From NCBI RefSeq assembly GCF_011927665.1, contig NZ_JAATJA010000001.1:291019-355018 (forward strand): a stretch of 64,000 bases of DNA, given 5' to 3'. Positions 26,109 through 26,242 of this stretch are shown here, piece by piece. Made by a program: the position numbers and the translations under genes. Under the pieces are notes generated by a model, which made no database searches, was not told where the DNA came from, and was given only the letters and a program-made list of their open reading frames with translations. The first letter of the stretch is position 1; each line of letters opens with the position of its first letter. This DNA is from Desulfobaculum xiamenense. Lineage in GTDB: Bacteria > Desulfobacterota > Desulfovibrionia > Desulfovibrionales > Desulfovibrionaceae.

Positions 26109-26120
26109 CCTTGGATGAGT

Positions 26121-26198
26121 CGCCGGGCAGTGGACCCGGCGAAGACATCCCGATTTTACGGAAATCAGTCGCCGGGGGGTGCCGGTGGCTGATTTTTC
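26121..26198 (+). promoter_or_regulatory. Attenuator-like structure between ilvN and ilvC
   Basis: Arm 1 CGCCGGG (26121-26127) pairs with arm 2 CCCGGCG (26135-26141). Arm 3 (26162-26175) pairs with arm 4 (26182-26195) in a 14-position stem followed by TTTTT, a Rho-independent terminator. Arm 3 repeats CGCCGGG at 26170-26176, so arm 2 can pair with it instead and prevent the terminator. This is the classic protector/antiterminator/terminator layout. No separate leader peptide was found; the ilvN stop codon just upstream could play that part. Confidence 0.65.
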
Positions 26199-26242
26199 GT
26201 CTCGACATGGGGACACAACAGCAACACGAAAAGAGGATACCA

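Follow-up and report, generated by a model that had tools for sequence, protein, structure and literature searches.

An attenuator-like RNA module between ilvN and ilvC in Desulfobaculum xiamenense and a small group of related genera

Results

The window, by which we mean the whole 64,000-nt stretch of DNA analysed here, belongs to the genome of Desulfobaculum xiamenense (G000; 3.64 Mb in 8 contigs), whose genus is represented in our comparison by two genomes, this one and G036. In order, the window carries four genes that we take, from sequence features, to be HAD-like, YggT-like, DivIVA-like and DUF167-like, followed by a 75-aa ORF, ilvB (23922-25619), ilvN and ilvC. The ilvN gene (25629-26108, plus strand, 159 aa, stop codon TAA at 26106-26108) was identified as an ORF matching NCBIfam TIGR00119 (acolac_sm) above the cut-off, and ilvC (26243-27232, plus strand, 329 aa) as an ORF aligned to its relatives. 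The nearest named records by IlvN are mostly Desulfovibrionales (among the best 80 of 524). The 75-aa ORF (23693-23920), which is charged and lies between the DUF167-like gene and ilvB, has a close relative directly upstream of ilvC in G036. A terminator-like hairpin with T5 at 23307-23333 overlaps the end of the DivIVA-like gene and is possibly another internal terminator of the same cluster, and a strong terminator after ilvC (27274-27305; 13 pairs, T5) would end the operon.

The spacer between ilvN and ilvC can form three helices on the plus strand. Minimum free energy folding places hairpin 1, a candidate anti-antiterminator, at about 26113-26149, with a core pairing 26120-26127 with 26135-26142 and a helper stem pairing 26113-26117 with 26146-26150. 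The 5′ side of the core contains arm 1, CGCCGGG (26121-26127), and its 3′ side is arm 2, CCCGGCGA (26135-26142), whose partner is either arm 1 or, in a putative antiterminator, arm 3, TCGCCGGG (26169-26176). Arm 3 in turn forms part of the 5′ side of an intrinsic-terminator-like hairpin (26162-26197), in which AAATCAGTCGCCGG (26162-26175) pairs with CCGGTGGCTGATTT (26182-26195), with a U5 run at 26193-26197 that ends 45 nt before the ilvC start. The original prediction for this DNA had proposed three mutually exclusive pairings (26121-26127 with 26135-26141, 26135-26141 with 26170-26176, and 26162-26175 with 26182-26195), and the sequence bears these out at exactly those positions, including an intrinsic-terminator-like hairpin inside the operon. 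The exact swap between identical CGCCGGG arms that it described is also present and is longer than claimed: CGCCGGG recurs at 26170-26176 within a repeated word of ten bases, AGTCGCCGGG, found at 26118-26127 and 26167-26176, and CCCGGCGA and TCGCCGGG extend the swap to 8 nt. The TTTTT assigned to the terminator is likewise there, but three of the five T lie inside the stem and TT alone follows it. Antiterminator and anti-antiterminator pairings exclude each other through this 8-nt swap. A layout of anti-antiterminator, antiterminator and terminator is plausible.

Several controls indicate how uncommon this arrangement is. The spacer folds better than 200 of 200 dinucleotide shuffles (z -4.28), and among 83 terminator-like sites, defined by our own rule, over 400 kb of the same genome, a swap of at least 6 nt occurs at one, the ilvN-ilvC spacer; four others carry a swap of 5 nt and 78 carry none. 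When the 53 nt upstream were dinucleotide-shuffled 20,000 times, five shuffles reached a swap of 7 nt and none reached 8 nt. Between 25600 and 26400 every Rfam family stayed well below its gathering score, the two chance-level matches there both lying within ilvN, and no match at gathering score was found in 11 related loci; permissive thresholds yielded three matches, all far under their gathering scores. A separate idea, that hairpin 1 might be one copy of a dispersed repeat or else a shared regulator site, was rejected, the pattern CGCCGGG-N3..9-CCCGGCG occurring at 5 places in the genome versus 3 for the reversed control.

By a terminator-scoring formula, the hairpin scores +12.7 in G000 and +15.9 and +24.0 in two genomes of genus g3 that carry the same module, G045 and G002; in a fourth genome, G044 of genus g44, the U-tract is poor, the score is negative (-3.5) and arm 3 is broken. 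By sequence, a putative intrinsic terminator stands upstream of ilvC. A simple consensus scan of 22000-30000 returned 12 hits that did not include it, in our opinion because the stem takes up part of the U run and leaves only TT after it. Consensus scanning of the same interval also turned up nothing resembling a sigma-70 promoter within ilvN or the spacer, and therefore ilvC probably depends on read-through.

To place the module in the family, we compared 288 family and 348 order genomes and extracted spacers from 166 of 182 loci, the other 16 being unusable (6 without ilvN, 10 without ilvC downstream); the 166 contain repeats of the same genome, and 127 are distinct. A terminator by our rule is present in 20 of 80 genomes (33 genera), in seven genera (g1, g3, g5, g6, g11, g22 and g40), and three of these 20 spacers, those of G000, G045 and G002, have a swap of at least 7 nt, with two others reaching 5 nt. 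In G044 both hairpins are present and the U run fails the terminator rule. The module thus occurs at ilvN-ilvC in three genomes of two other genera besides G000, and this conservation across three genera supports the original prediction. A covariance model of the four sequences (R1) gave matches below E 1e-10 to those four alone, among the 288 family genomes as among the 348 order genomes, and we therefore assign the module to a small group of three genera. The best R1 match outside the four seeds had E 7.8e-5 (12-14 candidates scored per genome across the 288 family and 348 order genomes), and in the 12 matched genomes with a listed ilvC place no weak match fell at ilvC.

Between genera, 13-14 of the 14 hairpin-1 core columns are identical, compared with 36-44% of the other spacer columns (32/88, 37/91, 40/91, 40/92 and 37/95), 22-24 of 27-28 columns of the terminator stem and 72-84% of the ilvN coding end (43-53 of 60-63). 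CCCGGCG, within arm 2 (26135-26141), is identical in all four genomes, and arm 3 is exact in three, G044 differing at two aligned positions. The pair just below the core varies freely: three genomes have T-A, A-T and G-C there, and G045 has C/T. The core itself scarcely varies, so that its sequence, and not its pairing alone, is kept, in line with two alternative partners for arm 2. One G on the 5′ side of the terminator stands opposite T, G, G or C, and this letter is kept though mismatched in both g3 genomes, which fits a second partner for arm 3 but may reflect a single event. The compensating base changes anticipated for the antiterminator did not appear: none of its 7 pairs covaries, 26 of 28 cells pair with both breaks in G044 (where another register keeps 7 of 8 pairs), and five pairs never vary in these four sequences, two of which come from one genus. 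For hairpin 1 and the terminator together, 93.2% of cells pair, a percentage reached by 80 of 500 shuffles, and one pair is changed on both sides. Covariation in four sequences is weak evidence either way.

Folding calculations describe the competition between these helices. At the point where transcription has just cleared arm 3, the nascent RNA favours hairpin 1 over the antiterminator by 4.1, 3.1, 11.4 and 4.0 kcal/mol (G000, G045, G002 and G044, respectively, as below), so termination would be the default. The predicted probability of the antiterminator is 0.00-0.15 in unmasked nascent RNA and 0.78-1.00 with 20 nt masked in all four genomes. The original expectation that covering arm 1 would free arm 2 is supported by the predicted folds: a swap to arm 2:arm 3 is predicted in all four genomes when 12-20 nt past the stop are unavailable. 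The complete terminator is the most stable structure, outcompeting the antiterminator by 8.6, 10.2, 7.2 and 12.2 kcal/mol (estimated barriers 14.7, 11.5, 17.3 and 17.7), so any effect of a switch would have to be kinetic. The same calculation on the Escherichia coli trp leader gave the same pattern, with a difference of 4.7 kcal/mol (barrier 5.8). When masking is applied to RNA that already includes the whole terminator, the terminator comes out as the best fold in every case, and the masked trp and ilvL leaders also show a terminator hairpin, so this form of masking does not decide the matter. Sequestration of arm 3 by folding was matched in 227, 27, 8 and 138 of 300 trials with shuffled upstream sequence, since so G+C-rich an arm readily finds something to pair with. 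By this measure only G002 has a predicted switch that stands out from shuffles; what sets the element apart is that arms 1 and 3 are exactly identical and that the core is conserved, rather than sequestration as such.

A ribosome with a stop codon in its A site has its leading edge 9-11 nt past that stop. At the ilvN stop this edge would lie at about 26118, and arm 1 starts at 26121. The stop does precede arm 1 by 12 nt, as first described, with the core starting at spacer nt 13 (nt 10, 16 and 11 in the three relatives), but the accompanying proposal, in which arm 1 is covered by the ribosome that ends ilvN, finds no support in this reach or in the relatives. A 10-nt mask favours hairpin 1 in the three relatives and gives a mixed outcome in G000: the antiterminator probability under that mask is 0.25-0.86 in G000, 0.14-0.26 in G045, 0.00 in G002 and 0.00-0.01 in G044. 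In G000 only, loss of the helper stem strand at 26113-26117 brings both folds near balance, so the original model may yet apply in this genome. The claim that no leader peptide is involved agrees with the four spacers, among which no start or peptide is conserved. The ATG-started ORF before the terminator in G000 has one Ile/Leu/Val in 25 residues; a frame that begins with TTG and stays open into ilvC has 10 in 48, in G000 only; and one ORF of G045 has 11 in 29, runs through the terminator and is without a G002 counterpart. Judged by these sequences, the element lacks the peptide that would place it among ribosome-stalling leader-peptide attenuators.

The second genome of the genus, G036, differs at this locus. 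Neither profile nor IlvN searches found an acetolactate synthase small subunit there, the best IlvB match is 29% identical, and the genome may be without acetolactate synthase altogether. Its ilvC directly follows the 75-aa ORF, and a terminator about 50 nt before ilvC shares the inner sequence GGGGTGCCGGT with the terminator of the window, so a terminator persists without ilvN. An 8-nt word upstream, TCCGGCTT, can pair with the 5′ arm of that terminator, and this ilvC leader (locus L182, about 1369-1520, minus strand) carries a possible antiterminator along with the terminator.

Other genera carry different sequences in the same spacer. In genus g8 (L141, L120, L144, L178 and others) a conserved RNA-like element, some 120 nt long, abuts ilvC, with the pattern UCGGCAC ... 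CCGGC ... GCCGGGAAAC ... GUUUCGUGUCCGA. All 17 of the g8 genomes listed have it, and no genome outside g8 matches at E 0.001 (17 of 288 genomes; 12 of the 17 were model seeds). The element has 15 pairs of which 2 are changed on both sides, matches no Rfam family and is possibly an undescribed cis-regulatory RNA. In genus g38 (L007, L009, L011, L014, L016, L018 and others) the spacers measure about 335 nt and include long stretches of good conservation, among them TGATTGAACAAATATTCAG and one of some 60 nt ahead of the ilvC start.

Discussion

We propose, tentatively and at a little under an even chance, that the spacer contains an intra-operon attenuator of ilvC with hairpin 1 as anti-antiterminator and a partial terminator. 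RNA polymerase that has passed ilvB and ilvN would meet an intrinsic terminator of moderate strength 45 nt ahead of ilvC, where part of the polymerases would stop and leave the level of ilvC below that of ilvBN. Hairpin 1, lying right after the ilvN stop, would fold first and tie up arm 2, making termination the default; were it blocked or opened while arm 3 is made, arms 2 and 3 could pair, delaying the terminator and allowing read-through. That termination occurs, that it is partial and that arm 2:arm 3 forms in the cell is what we infer.

The same parts could also act passively. A fixed partial terminator may set the ilvBN:ilvC ratio, with hairpin 1 serving only to protect the 3′ end of the ilvBN mRNA, and the two hairpins may share a G+C-rich core, perhaps by duplication, with no switch involved; we regard this as possible, its chance also falling short of even. 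It would agree with what other genera show, since a strong hairpin without any swap is found in 27 of the 35 ilvN-ilvC spacers taken to represent the family, genus g11 combines a hairpin at the stop and a terminator with no useful swap, and all 13 loci of genera g5 and g22 show just a terminator. The shuffle-level sequestration in G000 and G044 and the antiterminator without covariation are consistent with it as well. However, a passive terminator alone leaves unexplained why nearly every letter of the hairpin-1 core is kept within an otherwise divergent spacer. We consider the module to be real, lineage-restricted and attenuator-like, with a regulated switch and a passive partial terminator about equally likely.

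According to the original model, hairpin 1 is kept open by the ribosome finishing ilvN, coupling ilvC transcription to IlvN synthesis, and the short distance from stop to core in all four genomes (9, 10, 12 and 15 nt) speaks for it, as does the G000 nascent fold, which already shifts with 6-10 nt masked, about the footprint. A possible restart ATG at 26115, 6 nt past the stop, would bring a ribosome onto arm 1 in G000, although its place is not conserved. Ribosomes lingering on leader stop codons of E. coli do alter attenuation, but towards more termination, according to the part of the source drawn on here (PMC5373646). The stop-bound ribosome would nevertheless fall short of the arm-1 core, the 10-nt mask has little effect in the relatives, hairpin 1 would have to stay open until arm 3 emerges, and G036 keeps a terminator where there is no ilvN. 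We therefore consider this model unlikely: the relatives speak against a ribosome trigger as a conserved function, and a trigger by the ribosome at the ilvN stop is doubtful. Assignment to a leaderless intercistronic attenuator class, in which a ribosome ending or restarting after ilvN would hold the anti-antiterminator open and so allow polymerase on into ilvC, is improbable to the same degree. Least probable of all, to our judgement, is a transcript boundary at which the terminator ends the ilvBN mRNA and ilvC has its own promoter, missed by the consensus scan. Promoter-resembling sequences seen by eye after a hairpin in the spacers of genus g10 would suit such a boundary, as would G036, where ilvC is expressed, if at all, without ilvBN upstream, but only 45 nt separate the U run from ilvC, these are not conserved, and neither they nor the ilvN end hold a promoter-like match.

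As the evidence stands, the parts of the element are of known kinds. Internal terminators between genes of one operon lower the expression of downstream genes; they share the placement between two genes but need no alternative fold, whereas here an exact swap is present. Like the ilvN-ilvC element, the E. coli trp leader is computed to form the antiterminator in nascent RNA when an arm is masked and to have a more stable complete terminator. The E. coli trp and ilv leaders, however, sense a ribosome on a leader peptide; the ilvN-ilvC element is without one, and a stop-bound ribosome would not cover arm 1. In the pyr operon of Bacillus subtilis, anti-antiterminator, antiterminator and terminator regions lie in part between operon genes, upstream of pyrP and pyrB, in the account available to us in excerpt (PMC7430163), and the PyrR attenuators thus follow the same three-part logic and intercistronic placement, their layout working alike in the portions of the sources consulted (PMC7430163, PMC4347634). 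PyrR with UMP binds a conserved anti-antiterminator loop, whereas the loop of the ilvN-ilvC element differs between genera and has no Rfam match, features that by sequence set it apart from the PyrR-type, protein-dependent class. The ilvBNC leader of Corynebacterium glutamicum, as far as the extract of PMC11857589 goes, folds into three hairpins (terminator, antiterminator and antiantiterminator), the same set and with the same genes as here; according to that extract, its attenuator lies 5′ of ilvB and has a leader peptide with Leu and Val control codons, unlike the present element, which lies between ilvN and ilvC and is without a conserved peptide (PMC11857589).

Judging by titles and abstracts, we found no ilvN-ilvC attenuator described in the literature for this family of sulfate reducers. 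The ilvN-ilvC spacer looks like a place where genera of the family put different RNA elements. If a ribosome trigger were true, the design would be a simple one without a leader peptide, in which the last gene of a biosynthetic operon depends on translation of the preceding gene. If the module switches by whatever means, an ilv operon in a sulfate-reducer family would have an attenuator between its genes, and the module would explain how ilvC can be set apart from ilvBN.
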